Below are positions 1-6,477 of a stretch of 64,000 bases of DNA, one piece after another. A program made the position numbers and the translations under genes. This DNA comes from Termitidicoccus mucosus (GTDB lineage Bacteria; Verrucomicrobiota; Verrucomicrobiia; Opitutales; Opitutaceae), in NCBI RefSeq assembly GCF_038725785.1, contig NZ_CP109796.1:806001-870000 (forward strand), written 5' to 3'. Position 1 is the first letter of the stretch; every line of letters starts with the position of its first letter. The notes beneath the pieces are model-generated. The model ran no database searches. It worked only from the letters and a program-made list of their open reading frames with translations, and was not told the origin of the DNA.

Positions 1-327
1 CAGCAGCTCCACCTCGCCACCGCGCATGTTTTTAAGCGCTTTCGCCAGAAACTGCTCGTCGGAGATTTTCTCAATCGCGGCATGCCGCACCCGCGGATCG
101 CCGGTGCTCGCGGCCACATCGGTGAGCAGCGCCTGCTCGCCTGCCGCCGCCAGCGTCTCCACGGACTCCATGCGTTTCTCAATGCTCGCGCCGTCGTCCT
201 TGGCAACGCGCGCCTGCGCCCTGTGCGTCTTCGAGCACCCGGGCAAAAACGGAAAAACAAACGCCGCGAGCACGGCGGCGAGGAACAGAGTGATGATATT
301 ATTGGGGAAACGACGGCATGGCTTCAT
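1..327 (-). CDS. HEAT/LRV-like repeat lipoprotein (N-terminal part, runs off the window)
   Basis: Read on the minus strand from ATG at 327, the frame stays open for 109 codons to the window edge. It begins MKPCRRFPNN, has one hydrophobic segment, and carries a lipobox FLPGC with the modifiable cysteine at residue 31, so it should be a lipid-anchored envelope protein. Repeat units of the form '..A.EQALLTDVAASTGDPRVRHAAIEKI' follow. The LPGCSKT lipobox region and repeats closely match the neighbour at 1908-4856, so this is a paralogue. It lies 71 bp downstream of the 399-1898 gene on the same strand and probably shares its transcript. Function is unknown; the repeats suggest a protein-binding solenoid. 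Confidence 0.75.
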   Translation of the reverse strand, partial: MKPCRRFPNNIITLFLAAVLAAFVFPFLPGCSKTHRAQARVAKDDGASIEKRMESVETLAAAGEQALLTDVAASTGDPRVRHAAIEKISDEQFLAKALKNMRGGEVELL

Positions 328-398
328 GGCAGGGTTGTGTTGGTGTGTTGGACGGGTGTGACGGTTGAAAAATACTCGCGGGCGCGGCGTTGGAAAAA

Positions 399-1898
399 TC
401 ACTCCGGGGTTGTCTGTGCGCCGGTGCACCGAGCCGCCTCCAGCGCCTTCAGCAGCCCGGCATAAAGGGATGCATCCATATCAACATGGGCGCATACGTT
501 GACATGCCCTTGTGCGCTCGAACCGGGCATGCCCGCAAAATATCCTCCTATTTCTTTCAGCGGGGCGTCCCACTTTTTTTCGCGTGTCGTCGTATATAAA
601 ACGCCGCCGTCGGTTGAGCGCAGCTCCACGGCAAGGCTTGTATGATAATAATCACCGGTGGTTCCCCCGGAATACTGAAAGGCGCTCCAAAATGAATGCC
701 CGATTTTGCAGTGCAGGATTGCGGACGCATTCCCGGCATCGTCCGTCATAAACACGCTGCCGGCGCTCCGGTGCTTGATTTCCTCGCAGAGTTCCTGGAA
801 GCGGCTGGAGACGAAGCCGTCCTTGCCGTCGTGCGACACGACCACGCAGATCGTGCGGGGCCGCGGGTGCGCGCCCGCCTTCGCCGATTGCGCCGGCCAG
901 TCCTCCGCCTTTATCACCGGGGTTTTCCAAGCATTCTCGATCCGCCGGCGCAAGTCTCCTGCATCCTTGTAATCCCCGATCAAACCAAGGATTCGCATGG
1001 CGTTTTCCTGCAAGTGGGTGGAATTGTTCGCCCTCCAAAAATGCCTGTCGGCGAGTTGGCGCGACACCTCGCCATAAAGTTTTTCCCTTATGTTTTCAGG
1101 CATGGGGGGCGCGTCATTTTTGATGATTTCCAGCAGGTTCATCCGGGCCTTCAGCATGGATTTGATATTCCCGCTCAAAATGCTGTCATAAAACGCTTTG
1201 TTTATCTCATCGGGCAATGACTTTCTTTCGAGGATTTCCCGCAGATAATTTCGCTCGCTGTCACTTAACAAATCCAGGGCATCGGATTCCTTTCCCAGCA
1301 GTTTTTCGATTTTTTCCAACGCGTATTGTTGAATCATCGCAGCGTTTCCGCCCTTGTGCGCGGCGTCCAGTTTCCCGAAAAAACCCGCGAGGAGATTGTG
1401 GGAATTGCCGCGGAGCAATTTGTCTGTGATGGCAAGCGACACCTCCAGCGCCCTGCCGGCGGCGTCCTTATAGTTTCCGGCCTTCAGGAACTGCCTGTAT
1501 GCCCGCTCGAGATCGCTTTTTGCAAAATCGTTTCTCCCGGCATATGCGATTCCCGAGCGGTAGGCAGCCTCCTTATACAAATCTATCGAATCTTTGTAAT
1601 CACCCAGTTCCCCAAACAGTTTTTCCGCATATGCGTAGTGTTTTTGTTTCCGTTCAAACGTTATCACCGTGTCCTCATTGGACGGGGAGGGTTTCTCCGC
1701 CTGCTCCATCTCGCGCCGCGCCGACATGTATTTTTCGTGTTTTTCGTTCTTGAGGCATCCGGCTGGCAACAGGCAAAGGGCGGCCAATGCCAGGAAGATG
1801 ACCGGGGCTTTCCAAGCCGGAGCCCTGTGTTCCACCCCGCGGGTTGCACTGACTTCCGGCTGGCGGGCGTCGTTTTTTGAGTGGCGGGTTGTTTTCAT
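399..1898 (-). CDS. repeat-containing lipoprotein of unknown function
   Basis: This 499-residue protein has a long polar N-terminus, then a hydrophobic stretch (residues about 30-45) ending in LLPAGC, a good lipobox with cysteine 48. Three spaced units, 'ELGDYKDSIDLYKEA', 'KAGNYKDAAGRALEV' and 'LIGDYKDAGDLRRRI', resemble the short helical GDYKDA repeats seen in bacterial solenoid proteins. The C-terminal third (from about residue 345) starts 'RPRTICVVVSHDGKDG', looks like a compact alpha/beta domain, and matches nothing I recognise. The start is 10 bp from the stop of the upstream WD40 lipoprotein gene, so the two are very probably co-transcribed. Envelope location is inferred from the lipobox; molecular function is unknown. 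Confidence 0.75.
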   Translation of the reverse strand: MKTTRHSKNDARQPEVSATRGVEHRAPAWKAPVIFLALAALCLLPAGCLKNEKHEKYMSARREMEQAEKPSPSNEDTVITFERKQKHYAYAEKLFGELGDYKDSIDLYKEAAYRSGIAYAGRNDFAKSDLERAYRQFLKAGNYKDAAGRALEVSLAITDKLLRGNSHNLLAGFFGKLDAAHKGGNAAMIQQYALEKIEKLLGKESDALDLLSDSERNYLREILERKSLPDEINKAFYDSILSGNIKSMLKARMNLLEIIKNDAPPMPENIREKLYGEVSRQLADRHFWRANNSTHLQENAMRILGLIGDYKDAGDLRRRIENAWKTPVIKAEDWPAQSAKAGAHPRPRTICVVVSHDGKDGFVSSRFQELCEEIKHRSAGSVFMTDDAGNASAILHCKIGHSFWSAFQYSGGTTGDYYHTSLAVELRSTDGGVLYTTTREKKWDAPLKEIGGYFAGMPGSSAQGHVNVCAHVDMDASLYAGLLKALEAARCTGAQTTPE

Positions 1899-1907
1899 GG
1901 CAAACCG

Positions 1908-4856
1908 CTACTCGCCATCCAGCGTTTTGATGAGTTTGCCATCGGGGAGACTCCAGAGTTTTATATTTCCGTCGCCGTCGCCCGTCAGCAGCAGTTTGTT
2001 GTCGGGCGAAAAGGTTGAAGCCCACACTTCGCCGATGGCGTCGGGCCGCACCGCGAGTCGACCTTCCGGCAGATGCCACAGGGCCGGTGGTTTCCACTCG
2101 GGATATTTTTTCATTTCCGACCCTTCCGGGCGTTCGTCGCTGGCTGCGAACAACCATTTTCCATTGGGGCTGACTGAGAATTCCCGTCGCTTTCCCGTCC
2201 TATATTTGTCCAGTGCGTTGGCGGGCACGCCGTCGGGCAAGCTCCAGAGTCTTACGGTATTCTCGCAGCCCGACACCAGCAGCTTTCCGTCCGCGCTGCA
2301 CGCCAGATAATCCACCGACGCCAGTTTGCCGCGGCGCTCCAACTCCAGCGTCTTGACGGTCGCGCACTCTGGCAGGCTCCAGAGTTTGATAAATCCATCG
2401 TCGCCTCCCGATGCCAGCAAACGCCCGTCGGGAGTGATGGAGAGGGCGCTCACGCGGTCGCCGTGCGTTTGCCGCATCGGCATCCGATGCCCGTGCGGCA
2501 GGCTCCAGAACTGGATGTTCCCGCGATGATCGCCGGTGACGAAATAGCGTTCATCGGGGCTGAAAACGGCGGAGTCCACGGTGTCGGGCAGCGTGCCCGG
2601 CTCGCTTTCAAAGGGCGCGCTCATGACAAGTTTTCCGTCCGGCAGGTGTCGGAGTTTGATTTTATGGTTGTCGTCGGCGGTGAGCAGCCATTTCCCGCCG
2701 GGACTAAGGGCGAGGCAATGCTCGCCGCGCAGTGTTTTCATATGCGCGCCTTCGGGCAGGCGCCACAATTTCGTTTCCGCCGCGACAGCGGACGACACCA
2801 GCAGTTTCCCGTCGTTGCTGATAAACAACGCATCAACGAGAATCGTGTGCGCGGGGAGTGTGCCGATGCCGGCGGATTCCTTCAGCCAGTGTTTCAACTC
2901 CCCCGCCCCAAGCTCCCTGTAAATATGAACCGCGTTGCTCCAGATGTTTTTCTTTTTAATATCAATGCCGGCATCGGCGCAAAGGCGCATCGCGGCGGCG
3001 GCCTCGGGTTCTTGAATCATCCTCCGCTCGGAGATTGGAGAAAAGCGACTGTCGCCAATCCTGGTTGTCCTCACTATGAGTTTGCCGAGGTCCTCGTAGT
3101 CGGCGTCGTCGGTGAGTATCCAGACGGCGGCTTGTTTGACTGCGAAAGCGGTGTTTTTCCCTTTTAAAAACGCCATGAGTTTTGCCAGCTCGTCCCCGTT
3201 CGGCAGGCTGCCGATGGTGAAGTGGTCGCTGCCGCCGGGGATATCCTTCGGCCTGTTGGCGCAGGCGACGGGAATGGCGTTCGCCCCTGTCTTCGTTTGC
3301 GACTCCGCCAGCGTGATGCGAACATCCTCGGTCGAGACCATGTTTTGCGCATTCGGATTGTCGCATACAAAATACGTCCCGGCGGGGATGAGGATTTCCA
3401 GCGAAGACGGGACGATTTTTTGCAAGTGAACATATATCCTCTGAATGTCGCTGCCGCCTATCTCGGCCAGAAGCTTTCCGTTTTTTATCAAATCAGCGAT
3501 GGTTTGCGGCGTTGTCCCCGGCGTTGCGCCGGACAGTTTTTCAGACGCGGCATTGCGCACGCGCTCGTCCGCGGTGTCCTTTGCAATTTTTGCGAGCAAC
3601 GTGCGGTCGGCCACGCGCCACAAGGCCCACAGCCGGGCGTTGGTGCTAGCGTTCTCGTCACCAGCGATTTCGGCCAGCATTTGCGGATCGGCGATTTTTT
3701 TGACAGCCGCCAGCGCGATGCCCTCGTCCTTGCCGCGCCTCGCGAGGCCAAACAGCGCCTGCGGGTCGGTCAGCCTGTTGGCCGCCTCCATGCGCACATG
3801 CTCGAAGTCATCCCCTCCGGCTATCTCGGCCAGCAATTTCTGGTCGGTCAATTTCTTCACGATTTCATCGTTGGCCTGGTTGTTTTTTAAAAGACGGACG
3901 AGCGCCTCCTGGTCGGTGATTTTTTCCAACACGACGGGAAAGGCAAAAGTCGGATGGGCGCTCATCGCAATGTCGGCGAGCGCGGCCTGATCGCTGATGC
4001 GCTCCAGCGTCGCCTCTAAAATCCGCTGGTCGTCTTTCCGCGACTCGAAGGTTATTTCGCCGGCGACGTTTTTGGCGATGTCGGCAAGCGCGCGCTGGTC
4101 GGTGAGCCGTTCCAGCGCCTTGAGACGAAGCGGCTCAAGGACGCTTCGCTCCTCGGCGTCCTTGCCTCCGGCCTTGGCAATCGCCGCCAAAATCCGCTGG
4201 TCGTCCAATCGCAAACCCGCCTCGGCACGGACGAGTTTGTCGGCCTTTTCGTTTTGCGCGAGACTGGCAAGCAAGGCTTGGTCGGTCACCCTGCGCGCAG
4301 CCGCCACGCGCACGAACTGCTCGCGCTCGTTGACTGCGATGTCGGCGAGCGCCGGGTCGGCCAGATTTTCGATGGCTCTTTTGCGGATGAGGCCATCCGC
4401 TCCATTCCGCGCTATGTCCGCCAGCAAAGCCTGGTCGCCCAGCGTGATTGCCGCCGTGACACGCACATTCAAGGAACGCGCCTCTCGGGCGAGCGACGCC
4501 AGCAATTGCGGGTCGGTGATCTTTTCCATTCGCGCGGCGGTGACAATCGAGTCACTCCGATGCTCGATGTCCTTGATGACATCGGCCAGCAGCCGCTCGT
4601 CGGTCAATTTGTCCAGCGCCGCGCCCTGCGTGTTCGCATCGGCGGCGTTCGCGGCCACGTCGGCGAGCAACGTCTGCTCGTTTGCCGCCGCCAGTGCGCG
4701 CACGGAGGCCAGGCGTTTTTGTTCGGAGTAATCCCCGCTCCCGTTCTTTGCGATGCGGGCGTGGTCCTCGGGTGTCTTGGAACAGCCGGGCAGCAGAAAC
4801 GCCGCGAGCAGGGCGACAAGGAGCGGGGTTATCGGAAAATAGCGTGCGGGAGGCAT
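1908..4856 (-). CDS. lipoprotein with HEAT/LRV-like solenoid, unknown middle domain and WD40 propeller
   Basis: I choose ATG at 4856 (MPPARYFPITPLLVALLAAFLLPGC), which puts the lipobox cysteine at residue 25; the frame is open further upstream but without a sensible signal. Residues about 40-450 hold many degenerate repeats of the type 'KLTDQ.LLADIA.....VR..A', like HEAT or LRV solenoids. Residues about 455-665 form a domain that I cannot name (key stretch IPAGTYFVCDNPNAQNMVST), shared with the next gene upstream. Residues about 669-982 contain seven WD40 units ending in variants of KLWSLPDG, enough for a complete beta-propeller. No catalytic motif is visible. An envelope scaffold or sensor is the safest reading. 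Confidence 0.85.
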   Translation of the reverse strand: MPPARYFPITPLLVALLAAFLLPGCSKTPEDHARIAKNGSGDYSEQKRLASVRALAAANEQTLLADVAANAADANTQGAALDKLTDERLLADVIKDIEHRSDSIVTAARMEKITDPQLLASLAREARSLNVRVTAAITLGDQALLADIARNGADGLIRKRAIENLADPALADIAVNEREQFVRVAAARRVTDQALLASLAQNEKADKLVRAEAGLRLDDQRILAAIAKAGGKDAEERSVLEPLRLKALERLTDQRALADIAKNVAGEITFESRKDDQRILEATLERISDQAALADIAMSAHPTFAFPVVLEKITDQEALVRLLKNNQANDEIVKKLTDQKLLAEIAGGDDFEHVRMEAANRLTDPQALFGLARRGKDEGIALAAVKKIADPQMLAEIAGDENASTNARLWALWRVADRTLLAKIAKDTADERVRNAASEKLSGATPGTTPQTIADLIKNGKLLAEIGGSDIQRIYVHLQKIVPSSLEILIPAGTYFVCDNPNAQNMVSTEDVRITLAESQTKTGANAIPVACANRPKDIPGGSDHFTIGSLPNGDELAKLMAFLKGKNTAFAVKQAAVWILTDDADYEDLGKLIVRTTRIGDSRFSPISERRMIQEPEAAAAMRLCADAGIDIKKKNIWSNAVHIYRELGAGELKHWLKESAGIGTLPAHTILVDALFISNDGKLLVSSAVAAETKLWRLPEGAHMKTLRGEHCLALSPGGKWLLTADDNHKIKLRHLPDGKLVMSAPFESEPGTLPDTVDSAVFSPDERYFVTGDHRGNIQFWSLPHGHRMPMRQTHGDRVSALSITPDGRLLASGGDDGFIKLWSLPECATVKTLELERRGKLASVDYLACSADGKLLVSGCENTVRLWSLPDGVPANALDKYRTGKRREFSVSPNGKWLFAASDERPEGSEMKKYPEWKPPALWHLPEGRLAVRPDAIGEVWASTFSPDNKLLLTGDGDGNIKLWSLPDGKLIKTLDGE

Positions 4857-4983
4857 GGAAAAGATTGGATTGGGGTGAAAATTGGGTTGGCGGGAATGCT
4901 GACACTGGTCACTCGGAGAACTTATAATAAACAACATTTTTACATAATTCATCAGGATTTGGAAAAATCTTCAAGCCAGCTCT

Positions 4984-6477
4984 TCAATGTCCCTCCGGAA
5001 GTCCTGCGAAGATTTTCACGCGGTCGTTCCAGATGTTTTTCTTTTTAATATCAATCCCGGCTTCCACGCACAGTTGCATCGCCTCGGCGGCCTCGATCTC
5101 GGTTATGGTCCTGAGAACGCGGCCGTCGCGGGATGTTTGCAGGGAGCCCAGGTCGTCGTAGCCCGCATTGTCGGTCACAATCCAGATGGCGGCCTGCTTG
5201 GTCGCGTAGGGAGCATCTTTTCCTTTCAAAACCGTCATGAGGCATTTCAGCTCCGCGTCGTCCGGCAGGCTGCCGATGGAAAAGACATCGGTCGCTTCGG
5301 GGATTTTTTTCGGCCGGCTCGCGCAGGCGACGGGGATGCGCGGATTCCAATAGTCGGCTTCCTCCAATACGACAGGCACATCTTCCGTCGAGACCATGTC
5401 TTGCGCCTCCGGGTTGTCACAGACAAAATAAGTCCCGGCGGGGATGAGGACTTCCAGCGGCCATGGCGTCATTTTTTTGAGGCTTATATATAAATGCTGA
5501 ATATCACCGCCCCCTATGCGGGCCAGCACCTTTCCCTCCCTTATCAAATCCGCCAGATCCGCGCGCGCGGCGTTTTTTTGCGCCCCGGCCAGCCTGGCGG
5601 ACGCGGCATTGCGGACGCGTTCCTCGGTGTCGCGCCTGGCGATCCCGTCCAGCAACTCCCTGTCGGCCAGCCGCCAGGCCGCCCACAGGCGGGCCTCGGC
5701 GCTGTTCCCGGGGCGGACGAGCGCGGCCAGCACCTGCGGGTCGTGCAGTTTCTTCAAGGCCGCCCATGCGATGTCCTTGTTTTTGTCATGCATCGCCATG
5801 CCGGCGAGAATCGCCTGGTCGGTTATTTTCTCCAGCGCGGCTGTTCGAATAGCATTATCAATATAGCGGGTATCATAATCGGCCTTCATGCTTTCCCCGG
5901 CGCCTGCGATGCCGGCCGGCACTCGCGGGTCATGCCGTTTTTTCAAGGCCGCCATGGGCGCATCCCCGCTTTTGTTATTCCAGACGATCTTCGTGGACAA
6001 TCCCTGATCGCCTGGTTTTTCCAACGCGGCCGGCCGCATGGGCTCGTTTTTGGGATTTTTTGCGACATAAGCCGGCGCGGGGCGGTCGGGGAGTCTTCCG
6101 GGGGCTTCACGGCGGTCATCCGCGTCTTTGTTGTCCCGCGCACTTTTCTCCGGTTCCGCCTGGTCATCCAGCGCACGCGCCACAGCGAGCCGGGCGGGCT
6201 CCGACACGACGGCCTCCCGCGCGGACAAGGCGGGCAATTGAGAAGCGGCGGTCGGCGTGCCCGCCGCCTCACGGCGGGTGCCGGCGCTGGCGGCCACATC
6301 GGCGGGCGGCGCCTGATCGTCCAGCAGCGGCACGGTCATCATTGCTTTCGCGTAATCCCCGCCGGTCATGGCGATTTGGGCGTGCCTTTCCGGGATTCTG
6401 ACGCATTCCGGCAAAAAACACGCCGCGAGCAAGGCGGCGAGCAGGGGAATGATCGAAAGGAACCGCGGCGGGTGCAT
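4984..6477 (-). CDS. paralogous solenoid lipoprotein without propeller
   Basis: This 497-residue protein is a shorter paralogue of the 1908-4856 product. It starts MHPPRFLSIIPLLAALLAAC; the paralogue's LPGC has become LPEC here, but LAAC at residues 17-20 is a canonical lipobox, so lipidation at Cys20 is likely. The solenoid region is much eroded (for example 'LPDRPAPAYVAKNPKNEPMRPAALEK'), while the C-terminal domain with IPAGTYFVCDNPEAQDMVST and KKNIWNDRVKIF is well kept. The WD40 part is absent; the protein ends where the propeller would begin. It is the first gene of the minus-strand array, 127 bp upstream of the next. Function is unknown. Confidence 0.8.
   Translation of the reverse strand: MHPPRFLSIIPLLAALLAACFLPECVRIPERHAQIAMTGGDYAKAMMTVPLLDDQAPPADVAASAGTRREAAGTPTAASQLPALSAREAVVSEPARLAVARALDDQAEPEKSARDNKDADDRREAPGRLPDRPAPAYVAKNPKNEPMRPAALEKPGDQGLSTKIVWNNKSGDAPMAALKKRHDPRVPAGIAGAGESMKADYDTRYIDNAIRTAALEKITDQAILAGMAMHDKNKDIAWAALKKLHDPQVLAALVRPGNSAEARLWAAWRLADRELLDGIARRDTEERVRNAASARLAGAQKNAARADLADLIREGKVLARIGGGDIQHLYISLKKMTPWPLEVLIPAGTYFVCDNPEAQDMVSTEDVPVVLEEADYWNPRIPVACASRPKKIPEATDVFSIGSLPDDAELKCLMTVLKGKDAPYATKQAAIWIVTDNAGYDDLGSLQTSRDGRVLRTITEIEAAEAMQLCVEAGIDIKKKNIWNDRVKIFAGLPEGH

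Follow-up and report, generated by a model that had tools for sequence, protein, structure and literature searches.

The stretch of DNA analysed here (the window) covers 64,000 nucleotides of Termitidicoccus mucosus, a member of the Verrucomicrobiota (contig NZ_CP109796.1, positions 806,001 to 870,000), and begins with a minus-strand cluster of lipoprotein genes that are called A, B, X, and C in their reading order. The proteins A, B, and C each combine a lipobox signal peptide and a helical repeat stalk with the same beta/alpha domain of about 190 residues, and B and C additionally carry a WD40 propeller; the gene of C starts at window position 327. There are good grounds to regard the shared domain as remotely homologous to the thioester domain (TED, PF08341). 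With somewhat less assurance, the order of its motifs favours a rearranged thioester domain, in which a TED has been circularly permuted or one of its hairpins transposed. The array can then be read, with a comparable degree of assurance, as a set of modular surface adhesins built on this rearranged domain.

No Pfam family matched the shared domain in the window proteins, where only the WD40 repeats of the B propeller were recognised. The domain of A was matched weakly by the NCBIfam model TIGR03934 (TQXA; E 0.0056), and the thioester-forming model NF012162 matched two family members weakly (best E 0.0059). A TIGR03934 search of 57 relatives gave no match, but no positive control scored either. 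Relatives were gathered from genome contigs and whole genomes, and 30 members were aligned. When the 30-member profile was compared with 177,635 PDB sequences, the best two matches were the TEDs 4c0z_A and 5a0l_A (E 0.006 each). Each of these alignments brings into register all three motifs that define TEDs, namely [YFL]C, PhiQzetaPhiPhi, and TQxxPhiW (PMC4450167, PMC6194298). In 5a0l_A, the matched Cys and Gln occupy chain positions 49 and 201, 152 residues apart, which is also the spacing of the Cys109-Gln261 thioester pair of SfbI (PMC4450167); for this reason, the family Gln can be aligned to the bond-forming Gln of TEDs. On the same alignments, the Gln of the family motif QxAVW corresponds to the structural Gln of TEDs. 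A second connection is provided by a relative designated L027, which scores above the Pfam gathering threshold for TEDs (24.3 vs 22 bits; 25.8 in another run) over profile positions 2-100 of 102 and was matched at E 4e-11 by a family profile that did not include it.

Several results weigh against this homology. The window proteins reach no TED model and stay below the PF08341 gathering cut-off, and the E value of the PDB matches is modest. A smaller profile gave as its best PDB match an armadillo repeat of artificial design, which was reached through QEAVW. A profile-profile comparison with four class II TEDs and a half-profile test with shuffles were not significant. Foldseek and VIA-align listed no TED for two confident models (pLDDT 89 and 95), and the top Z values of the fold search were 5.6 and 4.5. 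Both programs follow the sequence order, and VIA-align re-examines Foldseek candidates only, so the missing TED rows neither settle nor support the TED fold, a six-stranded barrel with a three-helix bundle. Taken together, the missed models, the missing structural match, and the presence of QxAVW in designed armadillo repeats would also suit an unrelated beta/alpha domain with a chance resemblance to TED motifs in its QxAVW helix and a Cys. Such a coincidence is quite unlikely, as it would have to cover three separate motifs that align to functional residues of the two TEDs heading the PDB list, as well as the extended Pfam match of L027.

The order of strands in the shared domain differs from that in TEDs, where strands A-B-C(Cys)-D are followed by helices 1-3 and strands P-Q(Gln) (PMC6194298). 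In A, the candidate Gln lies 26 residues N-terminal of the Cys and not after the Cys and the helices. Among the 30 members, there is no conserved Gln after the TQ-type motif and no further conserved Gln column. L027 ends about 37 residues past this motif; consequently, it has no C-terminal Gln strand. What follows the Cys strand in the two models is predicted to be a strand, a helix, the TQ-type helix, and another helix, which matches the TED order (PMC6194298). The best local match between profiles paired the N-terminal strands of the family with the C-terminal strands of TEDs, as a permutation predicts, and was not significant (P 0.08). The rearrangement step is suggested by the motif alignment. 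A point against it is that Gln and Cys would stay apart in a simple meander as read from the DSSP strings. An artificially permuted profile (A5) found the same TEDs in the PDB and performed no better than the native order, so the permutation is neither proved nor disproved by it.

Four residues are conserved among the 30 members: a Gln within [AV]Q[ND]MV, a Cys within [AYF]C, and, in QxA[VI]W, both the Gln and the Trp. The last two, which form the TQxxPhiW-type motif, are found in 30/30 members, and the window proteins have KQ instead of TQ at this site. The PhiQzetaPhiPhi motif is present in A, B, and C as AQDMV or AQNMV, and its Gln is kept in 24/30 members. In the window proteins, the Cys stands in ACAS or ACAN and lacks the [YFL]C-hydrophobic-hydrophilic context, which is found in the relatives L027 (YCLD) and L011 (FCFN). 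Both the Gln and the Cys are kept in 21 of the 30 sequences, A, B, and C included; three have only the Gln, none has only the Cys, and six have neither (Glu/Ser). By analogy with characterised TEDs, A, B, and C would form a Cys-Gln thioester that reacts with lysine.

The losses count against such chemistry. Two paralogues in relatives (L015 and L023) lack the Cys and keep the Gln, and a Chloroflexi clade has Ser at the Cys position. The six Glu/Ser sequences probably belong to one clade; therefore, the joint loss of both residues may be a single event. The domain could accordingly be a TED-fold homologue that binds non-covalently or serves as a structural module, with the Cys-Gln pair as a relic or only rarely reactive. 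The clade that keeps the domain with Ser and Glu in place of the pair, the two paralogues without Cys, and the better conservation of the TQ-motif Gln and Trp would all fit this explanation. It is considered unlikely, given that Cys and Gln occur together in 21/30 members from several phyla at identities down to 14-28% and that Cys is never seen without Gln. As a separate observation, a group of Chloroflexi lipoproteins (L042-L046 and L048-L050), some of them in tandem pairs, has replaced Cys with Ser and mostly Gln with Glu; judged by these positions, the domain is retained there without the predicted bond residues.

A second Cys raises the question of a disulphide. Cys353 and Cys385 of A might pair with each other, with the Gln being incidental, and both residues are found in A, B, C, and most array-type relatives. 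The pattern across relatives disfavours a disulphide and makes it very improbable: L008, L009, L011, L026, L034, and L035 lack the first Cys and keep the second, and L015 and L023 retain the first and have lost the second.

The domain is located either at the C-terminus or before the propeller. The stalk of B gave no match to PF02985 or PF13646 over the cut-off; HEAT repeats (PF02985) were found in the stalks of L015 (E 5e-28) and of L036 from another phylum (E 7e-6), and the window stalks look HEAT-like though too diverged for the Pfam thresholds. The stalk of L026 consists of a different helical repeat of the YfiO type. The propeller of B passes the PF00400 cut-off (E 1.5e-34) in five stretches. 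With its nearest relative, found on a Puniceicoccales contig (L010), B shares 90% identity over stalk plus domain, against 33% over the propeller, and the DNA identity falls at the end of the domain. Since the propellers of other B-type proteins are 61-75% alike, the window B is the one with the changed propeller. C is 87% identical in the stalk and 77% in the domain to its relative in L010, which has no propeller. Between the two genomes, the purine enzyme PurH shows just 68% identity, so the array has probably moved horizontally. In L010, the relatives of B and C likewise flank a relative of X. This relative (L010:9741-10211) keeps the start and the last residues (AARCTGAQTTP) and lacks about 335 internal residues, with the ends joined at a repeated ALE. 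The same contig holds an array resembling clustered regularly interspaced short palindromic repeats (CRISPR) at L010:1-3240, about 3 kb upstream of the B-type gene; the repeat is 36-37 bp long (GCCGCACAAACCGCGCTTTCAGGAATCATCAGGCGG) and occurs about 40 times at a spacing of 70-72 bp.

An earlier note on this DNA had described a tandem lipoprotein array with fast and unequal divergence, eroding solenoids, and a propeller in only one protein. The unequal divergence is real, and in B it is partly the exchange of a whole module. The erosion was also recovered: A has a shorter stalk with stronger erosion (42% identity to B vs 62% for the domain). The propeller claim has to be corrected: both B and C carry one, and that of C was overlooked because the window edge cuts this gene. 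Most of the stalk of C, its TED-like domain, and its propeller lie outside the window.

The family is distributed across several phyla. Array-type proteins were found in metagenome-assembled genomes (MAGs) of Opitutaceae and Puniceicoccales (L006, L007, and L010). Other Verrucomicrobiota contain the domain singly or on a stalk (L026 and L027). Among the further copies, L034-L037 belong to the L011 phylum, which is on record as Bacteroidetes, and L038-L050 to the L009 phylum, on record as Chloroflexi; the match in L047 is a different protein and was excluded from the alignments. Viral contigs, phages, and plasmids were searched and contained no relative. One copy (L008) lies on a short contig (3.2 kb, low coverage) that was assigned to an Aenigmatarchaeota MAG, probably through a binning error. 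A canonical class II-like TED with CnaB-like repeats was encountered in a genome of the same class (L052); its best plasmid relatives come from Clostridia, and the contig may be a contamination. The domain is patchy and not conserved as a single copy, being present in six of 273 genomes of the order and three of 388 of the phylum.

In the proposed mechanism, the Gln and Cys side chains would form an internal thioester against which the TQxxPhiW-type helix would pack. A nucleophile of the target, such as a lysine amine, would attack the Gln carbonyl and free the Cys, so that a covalent link would join the lipoprotein to its partner. The stalk would keep the domain at a distance from the membrane, and further, non-covalent specificity would come from the exchangeable propeller. 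Both the adhesive role and any target are putative. A set of periplasmic scaffolds for housekeeping or envelope assembly would equally combine HEAT and WD40 modules, which are generic scaffold folds, and the surface exposure of A, B, and C is predicted from sequence. The patchy distribution, the tandem paralogues, the propeller exchange, and the transfer between families are unlike housekeeping genes and leave scaffolds a low probability. In its broadest form, the adhesin reading holds that a circularly permuted TED with a functional thioester attaches lipoproteins of the Verrucomicrobiota, Bacteroidota, and Chloroflexota by covalent bonds to the surfaces of hosts, particles, or bacteria, and that horizontally moving arrays swap propellers to change targets; this combined proposal is tentative, with a chance that may be put a little short of even.

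The earlier interpretation of the cluster thus stands in part. A surface-type array, an unequal divergence of modules, and, on the best reading, a binding domain were all recovered, and the profile search returned a resemblance to an adhesin domain and no housekeeping family. A role in defence found no support, since PADLOC gave no match for A, B, or C and only a marginal one for X, to BrxC (E 0.0014); the anti-phage reading was dropped. Secretion or toxin genes were not among the neighbours with family matches in L006 and L010, which are an esterase-like protein, a DUF3829-like lipoprotein, and a solute-binding protein.

The coordinates and the minus-strand arrangement of the cluster given earlier hold, with A, B, and X complete and the start of C at 1-327 (Table 1). 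The paralogy is correct for A, B, and C, whose domains are 55-62% identical over about 180 residues, far beyond chance; X is no paralogue of them. No copy of the domain beyond these three was found when the entire genome (7.9 Mb, two contigs) was searched. The gaps A-B, B-X, and X-C measure 127, 9, and 71 bases, so a single transcription unit is plausible. Residues 194-276 of X show a marginal helical match to BrxC/PglY (by Pfam, DUF6079, E 0.047), which is probably a composition effect.

Table 1. Features of the lipoprotein array in window coordinates.
Feature	Position	Strand	Description
Lipoprotein A	4984..6477	-	497 aa; signal peptide, short eroded repeat stalk, C-terminal TED-like domain, no propeller
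Lipobox candidates of A			LAAC (Cys20) or LPEC (Cys25)
TED-like domain of A	4987..5553	-	Residues 309-497; AlphaFold2 pLDDT 89, pTM 0.85
Candidate bond-forming Gln359 of A	5401..5403	-	AQDMV, PhiQzetaPhiPhi motif; Gln51 in domain numbering
Candidate bond-forming Cys385 of A	5323..5325	-	VACAS; Cys77 in domain numbering
TQxxPhiW-type motif of A	5182..5196	-	QAAIW: Gln428, Trp432
Lipoprotein B	1908..4856	-	982 aa from lipobox-proximal ATG; lipobox LPGC (Cys25); HEAT-like stalk, TED-like domain, WD40 propeller
HEAT-like repeat stalk of B	3498..4769	-	About residues 30-453; below Pfam thresholds, type inferred from relative L015
TED-like domain of B	2916..3497	-	Residues 454-647; Gln504, Cys532, Gln575, Trp579
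WD40 beta-propeller of B	1908..2864	-	PF00400 E 1.5e-34; exchanged relative to the other B-type proteins compared
Lipoprotein X	399..1898	-	499 aa; lipobox LPAGC; unrelated to A-C
Lipoprotein C, N-terminal part	1..327	-	Whole protein 1089 aa, L005:7058-10327

Comparison with known systems places the array near several of them. The stalk repeats of L015 and L036 and the propeller of B belong to HEAT (PF02985) and WD40 (PF00400), respectively, whereas the stalks in the window fall short of the HEAT model. Bacterial alpha-2-macroglobulin is also a thioester protein of Gram-negative bacteria and was the top Foldseek row for the model of A, although insignificant (E 0.017, TM 0.23). It is a large multidomain protein with a CxEQ-type thioester of close-set residues, and this motif is absent from the window domain. 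The domain itself can be compared with that of L027, a small secreted protein from another Verrucomicrobiota genome with the same rearranged order (Gln59, Cys98, QSALW); it differs in the canonical Cys motif and in having neither stalk nor propeller.

TEDs of classes I and II occur in TIE adhesins such as SfbI, Cpa, BaTIE, and TIE-pLS20 (PMC4450167, PMC6194298, PMC8092201). Walden (2015) reported TEDs only in Gram-positive bacteria, and thioester adhesion has been reported from Gram-positive surface proteins only (PMC4450167). A survey from 2025 regards it as unknown whether intramolecular covalent bonds of kinds other than the isopeptide are equally widespread (PMC12617251). If the reading of the array is true, covalent adhesion would extend to another envelope type, the Gram-negative-type lipoproteins of other phyla; a natural permutation would be available for asking how the thioester forms, and protein coupling would gain a compact chemistry. 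The array proteins differ from TIE proteins in the Gln strand N-terminal to the Cys, a lipobox lipid anchor instead of an LPXTG cell-wall anchor, a HEAT-like stalk instead of an Ig-like CnaB stalk with isopeptide or ester bonds (no CnaB match was found in the window proteins), a domain that is C-terminal or before the propeller rather than N-terminal, and their occurrence in Verrucomicrobiota, Bacteroidota, and Chloroflexota. Because the strand order, the anchor, the Cys motif, and the Pfam score of the window proteins deviate, the array was not filed as a TED/TIE member. Nevertheless, both groups share a Cys motif followed by a TQxxPhiW-type helix, a PhiQzetaPhiPhi Gln motif, the order of Cys strand, strand, and three helices, and a secreted, stalk-borne architecture; by analogy, the array proteins most probably work like TED/TIE adhesins.

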